Shown: piece by piece, positions 48,686 to 61,471 of the stretch
Layout of the letters: every line of letters begins with the position of its first letter
How positions within the stretch are numbered: position 1 is the stretch's first letter
Assembly: GCA_013112555.1 (NCBI GenBank)
Contig: JABFGK010000002.1
Coordinates: 992,001 to 1,056,000 of the forward strand
Source of the DNA: Planctomycetota bacterium
GTDB taxonomy: Bacteria > Planctomycetota > Phycisphaerae > Phycisphaerales > UBA5793
Length of the DNA stretch: 64,000 bases
Direction of reading: 5' to 3'
Translations under genes and position numbers: made by a program
Notes under the pieces: model-generated
What the model was told of the DNA's origin: nothing
Seen by the model: only the letters and a program-made list of their open reading frames with translations
Database searches by the model: none

Positions 48686-50977
48686 TTACCCGCCATCATT
48701 CTCGGTTGGGTCAACCTCCTCCAGTGCAGCGTTGCCGGGAGGAAGGGGCGGGGGCCAGTCGATGAATATGGGGGGAGTTATTGGGTACCGGCCTTCGTCT
48801 TGCAGTTGCAGGAACACGTCATCAAGTTGGCAGGAAACCATCTCCCCGTGCACATCCAGTACGACGGTAAACCCACCCTGCAGAATCTCTTGATTCCGAG
48901 GCGCGTATGTAATCTCAATGCTCCGGGCATCATGCTGTATTCGGCTTCCGGTAACTGACCCGCCCGTGTGTGTTGAACAGTACGTGGCAGGCTGTAGTGT
49001 TCGATACCACATGACACAGTCCATTATCTGCGCATCAGTTTGATCGCTCTCCGGCCAGTCATAATGATTCACCCATCCCAGTTTCTCGCCTAGTTTCGGG
49101 CGAAGCGCAAAGACAACAATGGGCCAATCCGGCCACTCGTAGCCGTACTGCTGCACTTCATCGCGCCAGTGACGGTCGCCATCACACACCAGCAGAGACT
49201 CTTCCTCCCACCATGTAACATCGCGCAAGAAGCCGTAATGCCACGCTTCGAAGAGGATCGTGCCCTGTGCACTAAGGATTCTGATAACGTTCGATGATGA
49301 GTGTCGATGATTCTGCAGAGTCAGTATTTCTGCGCCCGGTGACTCCGGAAAGACGTCCGCAACACGAAACACTCGCACTGTGAAGTCCCCACGATCTCGA
49401 CCGAGTTCGGCAGTGTTGTCGGGGAAATCCGGCTGATGAAATCCGCTGGAATCACTTGTGCTCCAGAGTGGCTGTTCCAAGTGCTTCGGTTTGTACATAC
49501 ACAGTTGACCGCCGGTTGAGCGGGCCCCTTTGTCTACAAGAACCAGGGCCACTTTTCCGCCGCCGAGTTCTTTGGGCATCATTACCATCTGACACAGTGC
49601 ATTACCGGGCCACAGGTCGGGTTCTCCAAAGTACGCAACAGGAGCGCCCAGCCGTGATACCAGTGTGCAGTCCCCTTGCATCTGCTTTTTCGAGAATCGA
49701 GACGGCTGCACCAGTCCATACCAGACAGTGCCGGCCAATGCGGTCATGATGAGAGCGAAGACACCGATTGCCCCGACCGCAGACGTCCAGATTGGGTGAC
49801 GTCCCATCCATCGTGTCAGGCGGATCCATCCGGAGGGTTTTCTTGCGCAGATCGAATCACCCGTCAGATATCGGCGCACATCGTCGGACAGTTCGGAAAC
49901 GGATTGATACCGATTCCCGGGACGTTTGGCCAGTGCTTTGTCGACGATGACCTCCAGATCGCCGCGCATGCGACGATGCACTGTCGACAATGGGGGCGGC
50001 TCCGCCTCTTCCACTCTCTTCATGGCTCTCGCAATCGAGAGGCCATTCACGTCGTATGGAAGCGAATCGGTCAGTAACTCATAGAGCAGCAGGCCGAGGG
50101 AATAGACATCCGTGCGCGTATCGATGGCGCCTGGGTCGCCGGCGCATTGCTCCGGGCTCATATATTGAACGGTACCGACAATCTCACCCGCGCCGGTCTG
50201 CATCGTCGTGACGGCCACATCCGAGTCGGTGACGCGAGCAACGCCGAAATCAATCACCTTGACGCGACCGCCTGCATCCACAAGCACGTTGGGGGGCTTA
50301 AGATCGCGATGGACGATGCCGCGTTGGTGGCCGTGTTGGATTGCTGCACAGGCATCACAAAAGAGCTGAAGGCGTTCCTTTGTCGGTAGCATATTCTGTT
50401 GTGCGTACCCGGTAATCGGACGCGCATCGTCAACATATTCCATCGCGAAGTATGGTAACGCATCCTCTGAATCACGTGCCGATTCGAAGTAATGAACGCC
50501 CGCATCGTAGACCTGGGCGATATTCGGATGCACGAGCCGAGCGAGCGTTTCAGCCTCGTACCGGAATCGCTTCTGAGTCCGGCGCATCATCATGCCTCGG
50601 CGCATGACTTTCAGTGCCACGCGTCTGCTCGGGCTCAGTTGCTCTGCTTCGTACACGACCCCCATCCCACCGATCGCAAGAACGTTCGTCACTCGGTATC
50701 GGCCCCCGATTATCCGATCGTTCGGCAGCCATTCCAATGCCTCGCTCTCACTGATCGGCGCCTCCGGCTCTAGTTGATCAACCGGCGAACTGTCCATGAA
50801 GTCGCCCCCGCTGTCGTGCGCAGCCAGCAGTGCATCAACCTGTCGTCGGACGTCAGCCAGTCCGGCACAGGCGCGATCGAGATAGGCCGATCGATCGGCG
50901 GCTGATTCGTAATCGATGGCGTGCTCGAAGATGGCCTTGACCTGCTTGAGTTGTGCTTGTTCCGCATTCACAGGCAC
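48686..50977 (-). CDS. PknB-type Ser/Thr protein kinase with extracytoplasmic sensor domain
   Basis: The product is 763 aa from GTG 50977. The 80-residue helical N-terminus is typical of planctomycete kinases. The kinase domain runs from about 92 to 360 and is intact: glycine loop AIGGMGVVYEA, Lys123 (ALKVM), HRDLKPPN (223-230), DFG (243-245) and SPEQ. A membrane helix (about 388-412, SAVGAIGVFALIMTALAGTVWYGL) leads to a 350-residue beta-rich exterior domain of unknown fold. It lies 78 bases downstream of an ECF sigma gene, so the kinase may regulate that sigma factor by phosphorylation, as reported for some ECF-kinase pairs. Confidence 0.92.
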   Translation of the reverse strand: MPVNAEQAQLKQVKAIFEHAIDYESAADRSAYLDRACAGLADVRRQVDALLAAHDSGGDFMDSSPVDQLEPEAPISESEALEWLPNDRIIGGRYRVTNVLAIGGMGVVYEAEQLSPSRRVALKVMRRGMMMRRTQKRFRYEAETLARLVHPNIAQVYDAGVHYFESARDSEDALPYFAMEYVDDARPITGYAQQNMLPTKERLQLFCDACAAIQHGHQRGIVHRDLKPPNVLVDAGGRVKVIDFGVARVTDSDVAVTTMQTGAGEIVGTVQYMSPEQCAGDPGAIDTRTDVYSLGLLLYELLTDSLPYDVNGLSIARAMKRVEEAEPPPLSTVHRRMRGDLEVIVDKALAKRPGNRYQSVSELSDDVRRYLTGDSICARKPSGWIRLTRWMGRHPIWTSAVGAIGVFALIMTALAGTVWYGLVQPSRFSKKQMQGDCTLVSRLGAPVAYFGEPDLWPGNALCQMVMMPKELGGGKVALVLVDKGARSTGGQLCMYKPKHLEQPLWSTSDSSGFHQPDFPDNTAELGRDRGDFTVRVFRVADVFPESPGAEILTLQNHRHSSSNVIRILSAQGTILFEAWHYGFLRDVTWWEEESLLVCDGDRHWRDEVQQYGYEWPDWPIVVFALRPKLGEKLGWVNHYDWPESDQTDAQIMDCVMWYRTLQPATYCSTHTGGSVTGSRIQHDARSIEITYAPRNQEILQGGFTVVLDVHGEMVSCQLDDVFLQLQDEGRYPITPPIFIDWPPPLPPGNAALEEVDPTENDGG

Positions 50978-51055: not shown

Positions 51056-51610
51056 TCACTCTCCCAGTTCATTTCGCAGCCAGGCGCGAGCAAAGGCCCA
51101 GTCCTTTTCGACGGTGCGCAGCGATACTCCCAGGACGGTGGCGATCTGCGGCATGGTCATCCCGCCAAAGAAGCGCAGTTCGACGACCTGCCCCGCACGC
51201 GCTTCCAGTTTTTCAAGTCGATTCAGCGCTTCATGCAGTTCCAGATAGTCGAGGCCAATCCCATCGTCAGCGATGAGATGCCCCGTGTCGAGCGCCACGC
51301 GCTGCCCGCCCCCTCCCCGCTTGGCAGCGTTACGTTTGCGTGCTTCTTCGATAAGGACATAGCGCATGGCGCGGGCGGCTTGAAAGTAGATTGCGTTCGA
51401 GTCACTTGCCGTACCCCCCTCGCTTTCCCGGCTTAACTTCAGAAACGTTTCATTGATCAGGGCAGTGGTTTGGAGCAAGTGGCCGGCTCTCTCATCGCGC
51501 ATTTTCGCATGGGCGATGGCACGTAGGGTCTGGTAGACGTCCGAGTCCAGCCACGGCATCTCAGCATCCATTGGCCGAACCGGCCGTGCAGTGTCATTGT
51601 CTTGATTCAT
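51056..51610 (-). CDS. ECF-family sigma factor paired with Ser/Thr kinase
   Basis: The product is 184 aa. Region 2 is at about 25-95 (LLQTTALINETFLKLSRE, AIYFQAARAMRYVLIEEARKR), and region 4 at about 125-175 with the helix-turn-helix MPQIATVLGVSLRTVEKDWAF. This sequence style (TALINEAYLRL, RRILVDHAR) is the planctomycete/acidobacterial ECF group that lacks a classical anti-sigma factor and is often linked to protein kinases. GGGAG precedes ATG 51610. First gene of an operon with the kinase. Confidence 0.92.
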   Translation of the reverse strand: MNQDNDTARPVRPMDAEMPWLDSDVYQTLRAIAHAKMRDERAGHLLQTTALINETFLKLSRESEGGTASDSNAIYFQAARAMRYVLIEEARKRNAAKRGGGGQRVALDTGHLIADDGIGLDYLELHEALNRLEKLEARAGQVVELRFFGGMTMPQIATVLGVSLRTVEKDWAFARAWLRNELGE

Positions 51611-54218: not shown

Positions 54219-55169
54219 GTGCTTCGATTGGCCGGCTTGTTGACTGTGCTTGTGCTCGCTGTTGTTGTCTCCTCGTGTGCCTCATCTCCTGGGACAGCGC
54301 GGCATGTGTCGGCCCCGGCCGTGGACGCGACGGCCCCGGTCGACTGGCCCGGTCTGCACAACGTCGTCGCGTACTATGACGACTTCTATTCCGGCGGGGC
54401 ACCGGAGGGGCGCGAGGGGTTTGCGTTGCTGGCTGACCTCGGGATTGTCACGATCATCAGCGTGGATGGGGCAGCCCCGGATGTTGAGGCAGCGCGTACA
54501 CATGACATGCAGTACATTCATTTACCGATCGGGTATGACGGCATTGAGCAGGCACGAGTTCTCGAACTGACCCGTGCAACCAGGGACTCGATTGCAAACG
54601 GTCCGGTGTATGTTCATTGTCATCACGGGAAGCATCGGAGTGCCGGTGCAGCGGGTGCTATTGCCGTCTCACTGGGATGGCTGACTCACGACGAAGCGGT
54701 TGCCCGGATGCGGGTCTCGGGGACTTCGAATGACTATCCGGGGTTGTATGCCGCAGCCGCAACGGCAACACGACTCTCCGATGAGATTCTTGATGCCGTT
54801 GCTGCGAACTTCCCGGCTGTGTCACGGCCGGCAGGGATTACCAGGACGATGGTCGAGATTGACTTTGTCAATGATAATCTGAAGGCGATTCGCGATGCCG
54901 GTTGGCAGACGCCGGCTGATCACCCGGATCTGGTGCCGGCTGCCGAAGTCGGTCGGCTGGTGGATCTGATGCGATTCTTGAAGGATGACCCGTCCGTTCA
55001 GGACCAGCCGGGCGACTTCTTTGCACAACTCGATGCAGCCCTTGGGGCAGCCAATGCGCTGGAGGCGTTGGTTACAGCACGCGAGCCGGTGCCGGCTGAG
55101 CACCTGACGAGTCAGTTTGCGTTGATTGGTCAATCATGCAAGTCGTGTCACCGGGCATTTCGCAACTGA
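54219..55169 (+). CDS. Lipoprotein with tyrosine-phosphatase domain fused to cytochrome c'-like domain
   Basis: The product is 316 aa from GTG 54219, whose signal peptide (LRLAGLLTVLVLAVVVSSC) ends at a lipobox; the track start is a TTG 21 codons earlier. Residues about 45-185 form a dual-specificity/tyrosine phosphatase fold with the signature VHCHHGKHRSAG (Cx5R, catalytic Cys and Arg present) and an upstream loop without an obvious general-acid Asp. Residues about 200-316 are helical and end in SCKSCHRAFRN, a CxxCH heme site at the C-terminus as in class II (c'-type) cytochromes. Both halves would be extracytoplasmic. The 3' end overlaps the convergent CBM9 gene by 22 bases. Confidence 0.82.
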   Translation: MLRLAGLLTVLVLAVVVSSCASSPGTARHVSAPAVDATAPVDWPGLHNVVAYYDDFYSGGAPEGREGFALLADLGIVTIISVDGAAPDVEAARTHDMQYIHLPIGYDGIEQARVLELTRATRDSIANGPVYVHCHHGKHRSAGAAGAIAVSLGWLTHDEAVARMRVSGTSNDYPGLYAAAATATRLSDEILDAVAANFPAVSRPAGITRTMVEIDFVNDNLKAIRDAGWQTPADHPDLVPAAEVGRLVDLMRFLKDDPSVQDQPGDFFAQLDAALGAANALEALVTAREPVPAEHLTSQFALIGQSCKSCHRAFRN

Positions 55170-56026
55170 TCGGCCATCGCTTCATTCACAATGACATTCT
55201 TGAACACGACGTTGCCCCAATGTTCCGGCAGGTGCATATTCACGGCGCTCTGTGGCGACCAGACCCAGTTATCCTCCGGTGTGTCGGGGATCTTCTGATA
55301 GTGCCCGTTTACGATCTCGTGCTGCCATTGGACACGGGAGAAGTTAATGCGCCATGGCTCTTGTTCTAATCCGGTTGGCGGGCAGGAGCGGCGGGCACAG
55401 ACTGCCAGGTGACTCCAGGGCAAGGCGAACTCGACGGACCAGCCCTTGTCGATATCCGTTGGATCGTTTAACGTGCCATCGATCCAGACGGCATGTTTCA
55501 TGCCTTTCAGGTCCCAGTCATGCAGCGCTGGTCCGCCGTTGATATACGTCTTGACGAGGAACAGGTCGAAGATGTTGTTCAGTGCATTGATTTCGATTTC
55601 GTAATATTCCTCGGTGTCCCCGTTCGGATCGATGAAGATTTCAAAGTCGTTGTCGTGGAACACGATCTGGTCGTACTCGGTCAAAGTCCCCCAGACGTGC
55701 GGTTCATCCATCCAGGCACCGACATACAGATATTCTTCGTCCCACAGCATCTTCACGCGCGTGGCAAAGCGCGGAGCCGGCCTGGGGCTGTCTGTGCCTT
55801 CGATATCAACGAAGTCCTCGGTCCAGTCGGCTGACTTCCAAGCTGCCTCATCCATTCTCCCATCGACGACGATGCCGTCTTTTACAGGCACGCGCCGACA
55901 CACATACCACCGAGGCACCTGGCCCTGACCGGGTATCTGCATGACGGTGATGTTTGCCTGGCATCCGGCCAACAGGAGCCCGATTGCCACCATCATCGCT
56001 TGCAGCCATTTGGCGTTACTCGTCAT
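55148..56026 (-). CDS. CBM9-like carbohydrate-binding lipoprotein
   Basis: The product is 292 aa from ATG 56026, with AAGGGTGG upstream; the track start is 31 codons further inside the transporter gene. The lipobox is GLLLAGC. The rest is a family-9-type carbohydrate-binding domain (DGIVVDGRMDEAAWKSADWT, VKMLWDEEYLYVGAWMDEP, DNDFEIFIDPNGDTEEYYEI, WSVEFALPWSHL). Its first 11 bases overlap the end of the symporter gene, so translation is coupled. It probably captures glycans or glycosides at the cell surface for the symporter/mannosidase locus. Confidence 0.85.
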   Translation of the reverse strand: MTSNAKWLQAMMVAIGLLLAGCQANITVMQIPGQGQVPRWYVCRRVPVKDGIVVDGRMDEAAWKSADWTEDFVDIEGTDSPRPAPRFATRVKMLWDEEYLYVGAWMDEPHVWGTLTEYDQIVFHDNDFEIFIDPNGDTEEYYEIEINALNNIFDLFLVKTYINGGPALHDWDLKGMKHAVWIDGTLNDPTDIDKGWSVEFALPWSHLAVCARRSCPPTGLEQEPWRINFSRVQWQHEIVNGHYQKIPDTPEDNWVWSPQSAVNMHLPEHWGNVVFKNVIVNEAMADQLRNAR

Positions 56027-58061
56027 CGCGTACCACCCTTCCATCATCGGTCGCATCGATTCGGGCTGCGCGCAGGTCGCTGAACATGGCCCGCAGATCC
56101 ATGAAGCCGCCGATGACAAACCAGATCGTCACAGCGATCCCGCACAGCAGCGTGAACCAGGTGTACCCCCACCAGAACGTCAGCCACTTCTCGTCCGAGA
56201 CATCGAAGTTCAGTGCATAGACGGTGCCTGCCACGAAGACGGCCGTCCAGACGAGTGGCCAGGCGAGCGTGACATAGGCAATCAGTTTGTCTCGGCCGAC
56301 GAACTCCTTGGTAAACCCGAGTTTCTCCCACATGGTCTTGCACTCGGTCGGCGCAACGGAGTCATCCCCTTCAATTCGATACTGGCCTCGGTGCAGCATG
56401 CGGTCCAGGTTGAACGGTTTTCGATATGTCAGCAGTGACACGACCACATACAGGCCGGCAGCCAGACAAATCGTGGCAAAGTTCAGTTCCTGGCCGGTGA
56501 TATTGGTCCGCACATGCCACAGCAGTCCTTCACAATACAGCATTGCATGACTGAGCCAGCCGTACTTCAGCGGGATAATGGGGAACGCGGATTCCGGTAC
56601 CTGTTTTACGACCACGCTGACGGTTGCCATGATCGACCCTGTGAGCATGGCTGTCCAGGCTCCTGCAGCCGTGCCGCGGTTCCAGTATAGGCCGCCGATG
56701 ATGGCAGCCCCGGCCCCACCAACAAAGACGGCCCCGGTGATGATGAGGAACATGGAGACGTATTGCGTCGGTCGCCACATCATGCTGAATAGAAAGACGA
56801 ACAATGCCACGCTGAAGATGGAAGCGCGCAGGAGCCGGAGGTGTTGGCGCTGCGTGAGCGGTTTTCTGCGGAACGGCAGGACGACATCCTGGATGAAGAT
56901 GACGCCCCATGAATGGAGGTATGTATCGTGCGTGCTGATGAATGCTGCGAGCATGGCAGCGCACCAGAGTCCGAGCAACCCGGTTGGCAGCAGGACGCCG
57001 AGTGCTGCGGGTGTGCGCAGTTGCTTGCGTAACTGTGTGGTCATTTCCTGGTCGTCATAGATGCCGCCGGTCTGAGTTTCGAGATTCTGCTCGATCGCAG
57101 TCTTCTGCTCCGTGAAGTCGGCATGGTTCACGGCCGTTCGGACACAGATCGGAACGACGAGGACGATCAGCATGAAGACGCGGAAGCGCCAGCCGGCCAA
57201 CAGATTGGCCATTTTCGCTTCATGGGGATTGCGGGCAGCACAGTTGTATCCCTGTGTTCCCTGCCAGCCGAGCGTGATGTAGAACAGCGAGATGACGCCG
57301 ATGATGAAATACCAGAGGTTGAAATGTGATTGCTGCCCGATATCGAGCGGGTCCACCATCGACTTCCCCGCTGGGGCCTCCAGCAATGTTGTGCTGACCT
57401 GATCCCAGCGAAAGGCAAACAGCAGCAGGTACACCATGACGACGGCAAAGACAATATTGGCAAACGAGCCTTGCAGGAAGTCTGTGACCATGACGGCGAT
57501 CTGGCCACCCATGAACGTGAACGCGAGACTGATGCCCAAGAGGATCCCCATGAGCAGTGGGAACGTTGAGATGGAAAACGCGTCGGTGATGAGGATGTCG
57601 GAAGGCAGGCCGCAGAGTGCCATGAAGAAGCGTGCGCCGACGGCCGGGAAGATCCCGAAGTTAATAATGCCGGAGAAGTAGGCAATGAGCCCGGCAAAGA
57701 CTCGGAAGTTTCGGCTGTAGCGCATTTCAAAGAACTGGGCCAGCGTCATGGCTCGGGTCTGTCGAAAGCGATAGACGACCCAGCCGCTGATGGCAATGAT
57801 GATCATGGCCGGCCCCTCGGCCAGCGGCCACCAGATTCCGGTGTACGCGACTTCGTAGTTCTGCTCGAAGAACCAGACGAGTGAGATGACGCCGACCTGG
57901 GCCATGCTCGTGGCCACGCAGATCAGGTAGCGCCCCCCGCAGCGTTCGGCTGCGAGGAAGCCGCTGACACTGCGGGCATAGCGTGCGGTGATCAGTGCCC
58001 CGCAGATCAGGACGACCACCATCCCCACCACGATGGCCCAGTCTATGGCATGCATTGTCAT
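56016..58061 (-). CDS. Sodium:solute symporter family transporter
   Basis: The product is 681 aa from ATG 58061 (MTMHAIDWAIVVGM); the track start 32 codons upstream lacks hydrophobic character. It has about 13-15 membrane helices with SSS features (ARSVSGFLAAERCGGRYLI, MAQVGVISLVWFFEQ, GLLGLWCAAMLAAFISTHDTY). A soluble loop (about 310-350) is present and two terminal helices follow a basic loop. The likely substrate is a sugar or related product, from its link to the CBM9 lipoprotein and the divergent alpha-mannosidase. Confidence 0.88.
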   Translation of the reverse strand: MTMHAIDWAIVVGMVVVLICGALITARYARSVSGFLAAERCGGRYLICVATSMAQVGVISLVWFFEQNYEVAYTGIWWPLAEGPAMIIIAISGWVVYRFRQTRAMTLAQFFEMRYSRNFRVFAGLIAYFSGIINFGIFPAVGARFFMALCGLPSDILITDAFSISTFPLLMGILLGISLAFTFMGGQIAVMVTDFLQGSFANIVFAVVMVYLLLFAFRWDQVSTTLLEAPAGKSMVDPLDIGQQSHFNLWYFIIGVISLFYITLGWQGTQGYNCAARNPHEAKMANLLAGWRFRVFMLIVLVVPICVRTAVNHADFTEQKTAIEQNLETQTGGIYDDQEMTTQLRKQLRTPAALGVLLPTGLLGLWCAAMLAAFISTHDTYLHSWGVIFIQDVVLPFRRKPLTQRQHLRLLRASIFSVALFVFLFSMMWRPTQYVSMFLIITGAVFVGGAGAAIIGGLYWNRGTAAGAWTAMLTGSIMATVSVVVKQVPESAFPIIPLKYGWLSHAMLYCEGLLWHVRTNITGQELNFATICLAAGLYVVVSLLTYRKPFNLDRMLHRGQYRIEGDDSVAPTECKTMWEKLGFTKEFVGRDKLIAYVTLAWPLVWTAVFVAGTVYALNFDVSDEKWLTFWWGYTWFTLLCGIAVTIWFVIGGFMDLRAMFSDLRAARIDATDDGRVVRDDE

Positions 58062-58261
58062 CCGCAGCGTGCCGCCTCTCAGGTCGCCCGTACCCCCCGC
58101 CGGTGACTGTCTGGAATGCCGGTCGATCGTCCTTGAGCACACTGGCGTGACCGGCATCCGTTGTGTGCCTGTATCCTCCTGGCGTCACCCATGGTAGACT
58201 CATGGCAGGCAATTCCACACACTGACTCACAGAGTCCCACATAAAGGCGGGCCGAACGATC

Positions 58262-61200
58262 ATGGCTCACGAACTCGAACATGCAGCCGGGCGATTCATC
58301 ACGTTTGCCAACGAGGTGCTGGCCCCGGCCGTGCGCACGCACAAATACGTCGACGACCTTGCAACCGCAATCACAGCCTGGCAGAGTCCGGAGGCCGTGC
58401 CGTTTGCGACTGCGGTTGCACAGCAGGACTATCAACCGGTGGCAGCCGGGTGGCGCTGGGGGCCGGCCTGGTCGACGTGCTGGTTCCGGATCAGGACGGA
58501 AGTACCACAGCCGAGGGATCTGCTCCAGCTGGCACTTCGGTTTTCCTGCGGTACGGAGGCCATGCTGTGGGATGAGCACGGCAGGCCGATTCAGGGATTT
58601 GATCGGAACCGCGATCTTTGCGTGTTGCCGGAGTCGCTGACTCAGGGGCAGGACCGGGTTACGATGTATGTGGAGGCGGCGTGCAATCACCCGTTTGGCA
58701 CGGCCTCGTTTTCATGGGATGATTCAGAACGGGCAGCCCGCTGGCGCGAACAGTTGCCCGGACGGTTGGAGCCGTGCTATCTCGTTGCCTTCAACCCCAC
58801 GGCCTGGCGCCTGCATCACACGTTTGAGTTTGCTCGTCAGATGATGCAGACACTGCCGCTGGACTCGCCGCGCGCCCACGAGTTGAAGCACGCGCTGGAC
58901 CGTGTGATACGAGCGATCGATCCGGCCGGCATCATCAACACAGCACCGATCGCCCTGTCAATTCTTGACAAGGCCCTGTCGGGCGACGGCGGTACTTCCG
59001 GTTCACAGGCGATTGCCGTCGGCCATGCGCACATTGATACGGCCTGGCTCTGGCCGATCTGCGAGACGAAGCGCAAGTGCATTCGCTCGTTTACCAATGT
59101 CATCGGATTGATGAAGCAGTTTCCTGATTTTCACTTCATGTGTTCGCAGGCACAGCAATATGAATGGGTCCGGCAGGATTGCCCGGCCCTGTTTGACGAG
59201 ATCACGACGGCGGTTGAAGATGGCCGCTGGGAGCCCGGGGGGGCCATGTGGGTTGAGCCGGACTGTAATGTTCCGTCCGGGGAATCACTCGTGCGTCAGA
59301 TTCTGTATGGGACACATTACTGGCTGGAGACGTTCGGAGAAGAACGGGGTGAGCAGCGCCATCTGTTTCTGCCGGATACATTCGGCTTCCCGGCCTCGTT
59401 GCCGCAGATCATGGCCCATGCAGGGCTTGACACGTTTATCACGAACAAACTGTGGTGGAATCAGCACAACGAGTTCCCGTTTGTTAATTTCCGTTGGCGT
59501 GGGATTGATGGGACCGAAGTGCTGGCACATCTGACGCCCGGCCGTGATTACAACGCGACGAACTCGCCGGCTGAGTTGGCACGCGGCGTTGAGTACGCCT
59601 CACGAAAGTGTAAGCCGGAATATAACGTCTGGCTTCAGCCGTTCGGCTATGGGGACGGCGGGGGTGGGCCGACCGACTGGATTGTCTTGAACGCTGAACT
59701 TAGCAATCAGACCCAGGGGCTGCCGTCGGTCACACAGTCGTCTGTCTCTGACTTCTGTGATCAACTTCATCAACGGCGGGCAGCAATTGTTAATACCAGC
59801 GATCGGCCTGATCTTGATGATCTGCCGGTGTGGGACGGTGAACTGTACCTGGAGTTGCATCGCGGCACGCTGACCACCCAGGCATGGCTTAAACAAGCAA
59901 ACCGGGCAGCCGAGCGGGACCTGCGGACTGCGGAGTGGTTGATGACCACGGCACCGGATGGTCGCCCGATTTCGGGTGCAGCGCGTGAACGTTTGCACGG
60001 CGTGTGGAAGACACTCCTGCTGAACCAGTTTCACGATATTCTGCCGGGTTCATCGATCACGTGGGTGTATGACGATTCGCGTGCCGACCACAGTGCGGTC
60101 GCAACAGGAACGTCCGAGGTGATTGCCGCGGGGCTTGAGCGTTGGGTATCGGCCTGTGATGCCACGGGTATGCAACAACCGCTTGTGGTATTCAATCCGT
60201 GTTCTCATATTCGAGGGGGATTTGTTGTACACCCAGAAACCAAGATGCCGGCATACGTTCCAGAAGTCCCGGCACTCGGTGTGTGCGTGGTGGATGTTGC
60301 AGCACAACCTCCACAGACGGATTTGTTGCCAGTTACCATTGCAGACAATGTGATTGAGAACGGCATTCTTCGAGCGGTGATCGATGAGGCGGGGCGCATT
60401 GCATCGCTGTGTCGATTGGATCACGGGCGCGACGCCGTGTGTGATCCAGCGCACTCGCTTCAGCCGCAGCGCGGCCCGTTGAACCGGTTGATGTTGTACG
60501 ACGATCTGCCTCGTGCCTGGGAGGCGTGGGACATTGACCCGGAATACACGCATCGGGGCCGGTGTATCAATGACACGCCGGCGGACAGGTGGGAAGTTGC
60601 GGAGCAATCGCCTGCGCGGGTGGCGATCCGAACCCGGCGTGCCTTTGGCCAGGGGTCGATCGTGGTCCAACGGATCGTGCTTGAGGCCGGCTCGCCCCGG
60701 CTCGATATTCATACGTATATTGATTGGACAGAGGATCGCAAACTGCTTCGGGCGCTGTTCCCGGTTGATGTGCGCTCCCCGCATGTAACGTGTGATATTC
60801 AGTTCGGACATGTGTTGCGGCCGACGACGGCCAACACGTCATGGGATTCGGCCCGTTTTGAGTTCTGCGCGCATCGCTGGATGGATCTGTCTGAGCCGGG
60901 GTTCGGGGTGGCACTCTTGAATGATTGCAAGTACGGCCACTCCTGTCGCGAGAATGTGATGGGTCTGTCATTGCTTCGGGCCCCACGATTTCCTGATGAG
61001 AGCGCGGATTTCGGCCATCATGTGTTTTCATACTCATTGATGCCTCACGACGGTGACTGGCGTGCCGCCGGCGTGGACTGCGCTGCAGATGAACTTAATA
61101 CGCCGTTGATTACGCGTGAGTTGCAACAGGAGCAGGCGGGAGCCATTCGTGATGCGTGGGCACCCTTTGAGATAACGCATGCTGATGATGGTGGGCCGTG

Positions 61201-61471
61201 TCGCGTGGCGGTGTCGGCAGTTAAGCCGCTGCATGTTCAGGAAGGGGCCGGGCCGTCGTTCGTGTTGCGATTGGTCGAGACGGGAGGCGCTGATGGGCGG
61301 GTGGTGATTCATTGGAATGTGCCGGTGGGGGATGTGCGGGCCGTTGATTTGCTGGAGCGTGAGAGTGGGGAGGTACGTGGGCCGGCCGAGATGCAGACGG
61401 ATGATGGCCGGACGACGTTTGCAGTTCGGAAGTTTGAGATTGTGACGTTGCGCGTGGGGTTGAAGGGATGA
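58262..61471 (+). CDS. Glycoside hydrolase family 38 alpha-mannosidase
   Basis: The product is 1069 aa, the usual GH38 length. Catalytic-domain motifs are GHAHIDTAWLWP (zinc ligands, about residue 256), the nucleophile Asp in WVEPDCNVPSGESLVRQ (about residue 334) and HLFLPDTFGFPASLPQI. NKLWWNQHNEFPFVNFRWRG is a substrate-contact segment. The middle helical and C-terminal beta domains are complete. No signal peptide is seen, so it probably acts in the cytosol on imported oligomannosides. The start is ATG 58262, 200 bases from the divergent symporter gene, suggesting shared regulation. The 3' end adjoins a dispersed repeat. Confidence 0.93.
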   Translation: MAHELEHAAGRFITFANEVLAPAVRTHKYVDDLATAITAWQSPEAVPFATAVAQQDYQPVAAGWRWGPAWSTCWFRIRTEVPQPRDLLQLALRFSCGTEAMLWDEHGRPIQGFDRNRDLCVLPESLTQGQDRVTMYVEAACNHPFGTASFSWDDSERAARWREQLPGRLEPCYLVAFNPTAWRLHHTFEFARQMMQTLPLDSPRAHELKHALDRVIRAIDPAGIINTAPIALSILDKALSGDGGTSGSQAIAVGHAHIDTAWLWPICETKRKCIRSFTNVIGLMKQFPDFHFMCSQAQQYEWVRQDCPALFDEITTAVEDGRWEPGGAMWVEPDCNVPSGESLVRQILYGTHYWLETFGEERGEQRHLFLPDTFGFPASLPQIMAHAGLDTFITNKLWWNQHNEFPFVNFRWRGIDGTEVLAHLTPGRDYNATNSPAELARGVEYASRKCKPEYNVWLQPFGYGDGGGGPTDWIVLNAELSNQTQGLPSVTQSSVSDFCDQLHQRRAAIVNTSDRPDLDDLPVWDGELYLELHRGTLTTQAWLKQANRAAERDLRTAEWLMTTAPDGRPISGAARERLHGVWKTLLLNQFHDILPGSSITWVYDDSRADHSAVATGTSEVIAAGLERWVSACDATGMQQPLVVFNPCSHIRGGFVVHPETKMPAYVPEVPALGVCVVDVAAQPPQTDLLPVTIADNVIENGILRAVIDEAGRIASLCRLDHGRDAVCDPAHSLQPQRGPLNRLMLYDDLPRAWEAWDIDPEYTHRGRCINDTPADRWEVAEQSPARVAIRTRRAFGQGSIVVQRIVLEAGSPRLDIHTYIDWTEDRKLLRALFPVDVRSPHVTCDIQFGHVLRPTTANTSWDSARFEFCAHRWMDLSEPGFGVALLNDCKYGHSCRENVMGLSLLRAPRFPDESADFGHHVFSYSLMPHDGDWRAAGVDCAADELNTPLITRELQQEQAGAIRDAWAPFEITHADDGGPCRVAVSAVKPLHVQEGAGPSFVLRLVETGGADGRVVIHWNVPVGDVRAVDLLERESGEVRGPAEMQTDDGRTTFAVRKFEIVTLRVGLKG

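Follow-up and report, generated by a model that had tools for sequence, protein, structure and literature searches.

A predicted lipoprotein of Planctomycetota fuses a cysteine-phosphatase domain to a class II cytochrome c domain

Results

The fusion gene and its neighbourhood

Within the window (the whole stretch of DNA that was analysed, 64,000 nucleotides), inspection of the open reading frame and its translation revealed one uninterrupted frame at positions 54219–55169 on the + strand that encodes both a cysteine-phosphatase domain and a C-terminal heme domain. Residue numbers are counted from its GTG start codon. The features of this gene, with the evidence for each, are as follows.

54219–55169, + strand: fusion lipoprotein gene P0001, 316 amino acids, GTG start (open reading frame and translation)
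54219–54278, + strand: predicted lipoprotein signal peptide, with lipobox VSSC (Cys20) at its end (sequence reading)
54351–54773, + strand: cysteine phosphatase (DSP/TpbA-type) domain, residues 45–185 (profile, Foldseek and Pfam matches)
54465–54467, + strand: Asp83 of the SVDG motif (Asp in 202 of 204 relatives)
54615–54641, + strand: P-loop HCHHGKHRS, residues 133–141, with nucleophile Cys134 and Arg140 (conserved in 204 of 204; GKHR as in AtPFA-DSP1)
54720–54746, + strand: GTSxxYxGL motif, the expected equivalent of the PTP Q-loop (conserved, in split relatives too)
54813–55166, + strand: class II cytochrome c domain, residues 199–316, a four-helix bundle (model, Foldseek and profile)
54849–54851, + strand: Met211, proposed sixth (distal) heme ligand, with ligation inferred (203 of 203)
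55137–55151, + strand: CKSCH covalent heme-binding motif, residues 307–311, with proximal ligand His311 (200 of 200)
55161–55163, + strand: Arg315 of the CxxCHxxxR signature (198 of 198 where covered)

The translated protein begins with VLRLAGLLTVLVLAVVVSSC, in which Cys20 is the lipobox cysteine, and its C-terminal helical domain ends in CKSCHRAFRN. An alignment placed a Cys at the lipobox position in 68 of 102 relatives. From these sequence features the fusion protein is predicted to be an exported, membrane-anchored lipoprotein, in agreement with the proposal of an initial annotation of this DNA that both halves would face the periplasm.

The gene stands alone, with its 3′ end overlapping the end of a convergent CBM9-domain gene by ~22 bases, and its neighbours encode a sodium/solute symporter, an alpha-mannosidase, an ECF sigma factor and a protein kinase. 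The CBM9-like lipoprotein gene, which overlaps the fusion gene tail to tail, lies together with the sodium/solute symporter (SSF) and GH38 alpha-mannosidase genes at 55148–61471 in what is probably a glycan-use cluster. The ECF sigma factor gene (51059–51610, − strand; PF07638, E 4.4e-42) adjoins the Ser/Thr protein kinase gene (48689–50977, − strand; PF00069), whose product has a probable transmembrane segment, and the two resemble the planctomycetal ECF–kinase pair. Elsewhere in the source genome, PF01578-type c-cytochrome assembly genes are present, and a search of the genome's reading frames returned the fusion protein as the sole class II cytochrome match (PF01322, 27.4 bits, above the cut-off of 26.5).

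Distribution and conservation of the fusion

Relatives were drawn from the GTDB collection (110 confirmed, 80 kept), from genomes related to the source and from sampled Planctomycetota genomes, and conservation was counted over a set of 204 distinct relatives. The initial annotation had proposed looking for the same fusion in other Planctomycetota, and it proved to be common there: 145 of 392 sampled genomes (~37%) matched at E ≤ 1e-20, about ten of these 145 carrying heme-less relatives, and among good genomes the count was 94 of 217, nearly always in single copy. Genomes related to the source matched in 26 of 61 cases, a few of which were weak matches to phosphatases without a heme domain. 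Relatives span at least three phyla, with 5 of 68 Hydrogenedentota genomes holding one; in Verrucomicrobiota they are rare (1 of 195 sampled genomes, this being the seed itself), with several MAG loci in the GTDB collection.

Both halves are strongly conserved. On the phosphatase side, Cys134, Gly137, Arg140 and Tyr106 are present in all 204 relatives, His133 in 203, Asp83 in 202 and His139 in 200; P-loop position 138 is Lys in 152 and Arg in 31 of 200, and in the GTSxxYxGL motif Gly175 and Leu176 are each kept in 203 of 204 and Tyr173 in 202. On the heme side, Met211 is invariant (203/203), Cys307, Cys310 and His311 are kept in all 200 relatives that reach the C-terminus, and Arg315 in all 198 in which it is covered. 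Four sequences lack CxxCH: L038, L063 and L138 stop where their locus sequence stops, which we read as contig ends, and L114 is a stand-alone phosphatase. Because both motifs are invariant over the 204 relatives, the fusion is more than chance, and the initial description of a phosphatase and a heme domain in one lipoprotein, with an intact HCx5R loop and a C-terminal CKSCH, holds across the family. One sequence with a diverged P-loop (L022/L124, at G023:C1:1254496–1255296) has TCETGRDRA in place of HCHHGKHR, with CxxCH and the Met intact; it may help to identify the P-loop residues that depend on the substrate.

The heme domain resembles a class II cytochrome, probably a six-coordinate one

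An AlphaFold2 model of the whole protein, built with a 78-sequence alignment, consisted of a DSP fold and four long helices (mean pLDDT 96.9, pTM 0.89), and the heme domain modelled alone gave a pLDDT of 95.8. The CxxCH motif sits in helix 263–285 of the model, near the C-terminus. When the heme domain alone was compared with known structures by Foldseek, the first 12 matches were all cytochromes c′ (E 0.03–0.17, best 0.031; TM 0.5–0.7), and Kuenenia Kusta0087/0088 had the highest TM-score among the matches listed (TMt 0.73–0.78). These E-values are modest for a small helical bundle, and sequence profiles agree independently with a class II cytochrome: a profile search of the domain reached cytochrome c′ at 1.1e-6, the Pfam Cytochrom_C_2 model matched residues 258–315 at E 2.8e-5 (25.5 bits, just below the curated cut-off of 26.5 bits), and PF01322 matched 69 of 78 family members (E ≤ 0.01, best 6.2e-9). 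The helical class II cytochrome domain of the initial annotation is thus borne out by the four-helix-bundle model and by cytochrome c′ matches in both Foldseek and profile searches; the outcomes named there as contrary to it, a failure to obtain a four-helix model and homologs without CxxCH, did not occur.

Six-coordinate class II cytochromes such as c556 and b562 carry a Met ligand near the start of helix A, and five-coordinate cytochromes c′ have a non-ligating residue at that distal position. The AlphaFold2 model places Met211 at the sixth position of helix A. Because this Met is invariant and near the helix A start, the heme is probably six-coordinate with Met/His ligation, like c556 and b562, rather than an open cytochrome c′ gas site. 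In an HMM alignment to cytochrome b562 the ligand Met7 lies three residues off Met211, and ligation by Met211 is therefore likely rather than proven. A low-spin Met/His heme would favour redox reporting over gas sensing.

These observations bear on the proposal that the domain is cytochrome c′-like and could sense NO or CO, of which the fold survives and an open gas site becomes less likely, the invariant Met favouring a redox role. For gas sensing to operate, the heme would have to be effectively five-coordinate or shed a labile Met on encountering NO or CO, with the gas then switching the phosphatase. The closest folds are indeed cytochromes c′, a class known to bind NO and CO, but the Met found in 203 of 203 relatives occupies, near the start of helix A, the place of the six-coordinate class II ligand. 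We therefore consider a gas sensor unlikely, and gas binding by the heme domain less likely than a redox role.

The phosphatase domain combines a TpbA-like fold with a Siw14-like loop

Among solved structures, TpbA was the best profile match to the phosphatase domain (2m3v, E 3e-11; 4r0s, E 2.7e-10), followed by the DUF442 protein 3gxg at 1.6e-6. A Foldseek search of the PDB with the whole model likewise placed TpbA nearest (4r0s, TMt 0.76), ahead of VHZ, DUF442, Cdc14, PFA-DSP1 and Siw14, and the Pfam matches were to PTP-SAK, Tc-R-P and DSPc. The domain thus has both the HCx5R P-loop and the DSP fold of cysteine-based DSP/PTP enzymes. The general acid of TpbA is Asp105 (PMC4409338), which corresponds to position 107 of the fusion protein. 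Among the 204 relatives there was no conserved general-acid Asp at this position (D 124, N 21, S 19, K 15, R 9) and no conserved Ser/Thr after P-loop Arg140 (position 141: G 137, S 61, A 6). The fusion protein itself has Asp107 and Ser141, and its turnover may thus be closer to that of a classical DSP than is the turnover of many relatives.

The P-loop has the CxxGKHR pattern of the Siw14/PFA-DSP type. In AtPFA-DSP1 the loop reads H149-C-K-R-G-K-H-R156, His155 is required for activity and the WPD loop lacks a general acid, Siw14/PFA-DSP enzymes operating without a protein general acid (PMC9038691). Membership in that family fell short of its cut-off, with PF03162 scoring the fusion protein at E 0.061 (13.4 bits vs a cut-off of 27) and matching 27 of 78 family members (best 1e-5). 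The domain had been called a tyrosine phosphatase; its fold is that of TpbA and DSPs, but by the Asp count (124/204), the Gly that mostly follows the P-loop Arg (137/204) and the GKHR loop it is not of the standard type. A more fitting description of the phosphatase half is a cysteine phosphatase of DSP fold whose loop is Siw14-like; its substrates may be pyrophosphates or molecules with several phosphates. That Asp107 and a Ser/Thr after Arg140 are not conserved could point to slow turnover or to a role other than that of a phosphatase.

One such role would be that of an oxidoreductase: Cys134 in the Cx5R loop would hold an oxyanion or a sulfur compound, such as thiosulfate, persulfide or arsenate, and the heme would donate electrons to it or accept them from it. 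DUF442/Blh sulfurtransferase models match 69 of 78 members (best E 6.4e-9), DUF442 is the next profile match after TpbA, the residues expected of a general acid and of a Ser/Thr after the Arg are variable, and a six-coordinate Met/His heme is typical of an electron carrier. TpbA, however, scores far above DUF442 (3e-11 vs 1.6e-6), and because of this far better match we ranked Blh/DUF442 sulfurtransferase membership below phosphatase; the GKHR P-loop is, moreover, that of a proven phosphatase family. The tight pairing of phosphatase and cytochrome described below would suit an electron path, but genes for sulfur, arsenic or respiratory functions are not conserved next to the fusion gene. We allow this oxidoreductase more room than a gas sensor, while still regarding it as improbable.

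The two modules also occur as neighbouring genes

Three relatives from three different families of Planctomycetota (L114, L115 and L116) are stand-alone phosphatases with no heme domain. Their P-loops (HCHAGRHRAS, HCKNGKHRSA and HCHHGKHRGG, respectively) all contain [K/R]HR, and all three have the YxGL motif. In each case the next gene on the same strand encodes a small, lipoprotein-like product with a C-terminal CxxCH. PF01322 matched two of the three adjacent cytochrome-like proteins (4.3e-5 and 0.0016, both under the curated cut-off), and a heme-domain profile of the fusion relatives matched all three (3.5e-6, 2.3e-4 and 5.6e-4). In whole-genome searches with this profile, the adjacent gene was the best match in each of the three genomes and the sole match in two. 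The same whole-genome search gave no match in the six genomes that carry a TpbA-like relative with an HGxDRTG loop, one of which (G283) has a weak PF01322 match elsewhere in the genome. The L116 reading frame (G198:C171) seems to contain two phosphatase-like domains, of which the second lacks a Cx5R motif.

In a tree of the phosphatase domain, L114–L116 fell outside a single clade of the fused forms (supports 0.82, 0.87 and 0.68), a result to which we give moderate weight because of long branches. Apparently, then, the modules were paired as neighbouring genes in early branches and were fused once. Because the pairing persists in two forms, adjacent genes and a fusion, we take it to be functional and to be strong evidence that the two halves work together.

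Evidence for and against coupling between the halves

Apart from the lipid- and heme-bearing cysteines, Cys134 is the only Cys in the fusion protein, and no further Cys is conserved in more than 20% of the relatives' sequences; with no other free or conserved Cys, no internal disulfide can protect Cys134. Between-domain covariation was weak, with the top scores of a mean-field DCA on 199 sequences barely above shuffled controls. Pairs joining the active site to the heme side made up 6 of the top 20 vs 1.5 expected, an excess that we treat as a hint because the residue sets were chosen after viewing the list and most scores lay within the shuffled range. A placement of the helix A start and the heme end facing the active-site loops is only hinted at by these pairs.

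The flanking genes named no substrate or partner, and, apart from the cytochrome gene next to each split phosphatase, no conserved operon partner was found; genes resembling those of iron ABC transporters, cytochrome b561 and NrfAH, named by sequence reading, recur in only a few loci. By the same kind of reading, the downstream gene in L044, L045, L051, L058 and L065 resembles an iron(III) ABC-transporter binding protein, and in L029, L030 and L038 genes like those of the nitrite reductase NrfA and of NrfH lie a few genes away, upstream and on the opposite strand.

Weak covariation would fit a phosphatase that acts independently of its cytochrome, the latter serving to carry electrons, to dock or to tether, and class II cytochromes are ordinary electron carriers. 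Such independence fits poorly with the retention of the fusion in about a third of the sampled Planctomycetota genomes and with the pattern among sampled members with an HR-type P-loop, where no heme-less form was seen without an adjacent cytochrome. Of the readings weighed here, a lack of regulatory coupling seems to us the least likely, just behind gas sensing.

Discussion

Our preferred reading, to which we give about as much belief as doubt, is a membrane-anchored periplasmic cysteine phosphatase under the control of a c-type heme of its own, which would set or report the redox state of the enzyme. Cys134 would attack a phosphate of a periplasmic substrate, which, because of the GKHR P-loop and the lack of a conserved general acid, is more likely to be a small molecule with strong negative charge or a pyrophosphate group than a protein carrying phosphotyrosine. 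The Met/His heme would exchange electrons with the periplasmic (envelope) pool, and its oxidation state, or loss of the Met and binding of a gas, would alter the active-site loops or keep Cys134 reduced, such that phosphatase output would track the state of the envelope, be it respiratory or redox. That the halves are coupled is our inference; cysteine phosphatases are redox-sensitive, and a redox link between the heme and the catalytic Cys, as first proposed, remains the leading idea. In a bolder form of this proposal, the covalently bound Met/His heme would directly set the redox state of the catalytic Cys, linking the electron pool of the envelope to a periplasmic phosphate signal, with a Siw14-like, pyrophosphate-type active site that needs no general acid from the protein; this we hold to be doubtful, less probable than the oxidoreductase and more so than the gas sensor.

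The fusion suggests that electrons or gases might switch the phosphatase. If coupling is true, it would tie phosphate signalling in Planctomycetota directly to the flow of electrons in the envelope, and would provide a clean system for electron transfer to a phosphatase cysteine and possibly a new regulatory principle. Relatives with the two modules in separate genes supply a ready-made control, as the halves can be separated or combined in an assay. The initial annotation knew of no characterised protein of this kind, and our literature searches, outside which most subscription journals lay, agree, with no report found of a heme- or cytochrome-linked phosphatase. Both folds are known; we know of no precedent for their being combined or for the conservation of the combination.

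Comparison with known systems

TpbA, the periplasmic dual-specificity phosphatase of Pseudomonas aeruginosa (4r0s/2m3v), is like the fusion protein exported, with a DSP fold and an HCxxGxxR P-loop. It differs in lacking a heme domain, in its general acid Asp105, which has no conserved counterpart among the fusion relatives, and in its P-loop, HCKHGNNRT vs HCHHGKHR[GS] here, where the residue after the Arg is mostly Gly. Siw14 and PFA-DSP1, inositol-pyrophosphate phosphatases (PF03162), are eukaryotic enzymes without heme. They share with the fusion family the GKHR P-loop and the lack of a conserved general acid, and appear among the Foldseek matches (6byf and the 7mo* series). The AtPFA-DSP1 loop, HCKRGKHR (PMC9038691), has the same GKHR, and its catalytic His155 corresponds to His139 here, present in 200 of 204 relatives.

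The heme domain shares with cytochromes c′ and c556 (PF01322) a four-helix bundle, a CxxCH in the last helix and a CxxCHxx[YF]R ending, but here it is fused to, or encoded beside, a phosphatase. Known members of that group are stand-alone carriers or gas-binding proteins. Kusta0087 and Kusta0088 of Kuenenia (NaxLS, 6r6m/6r6n) are likewise planctomycetotal four-helix class II-like cytochromes; the two form a complex that lacks an enzyme domain.
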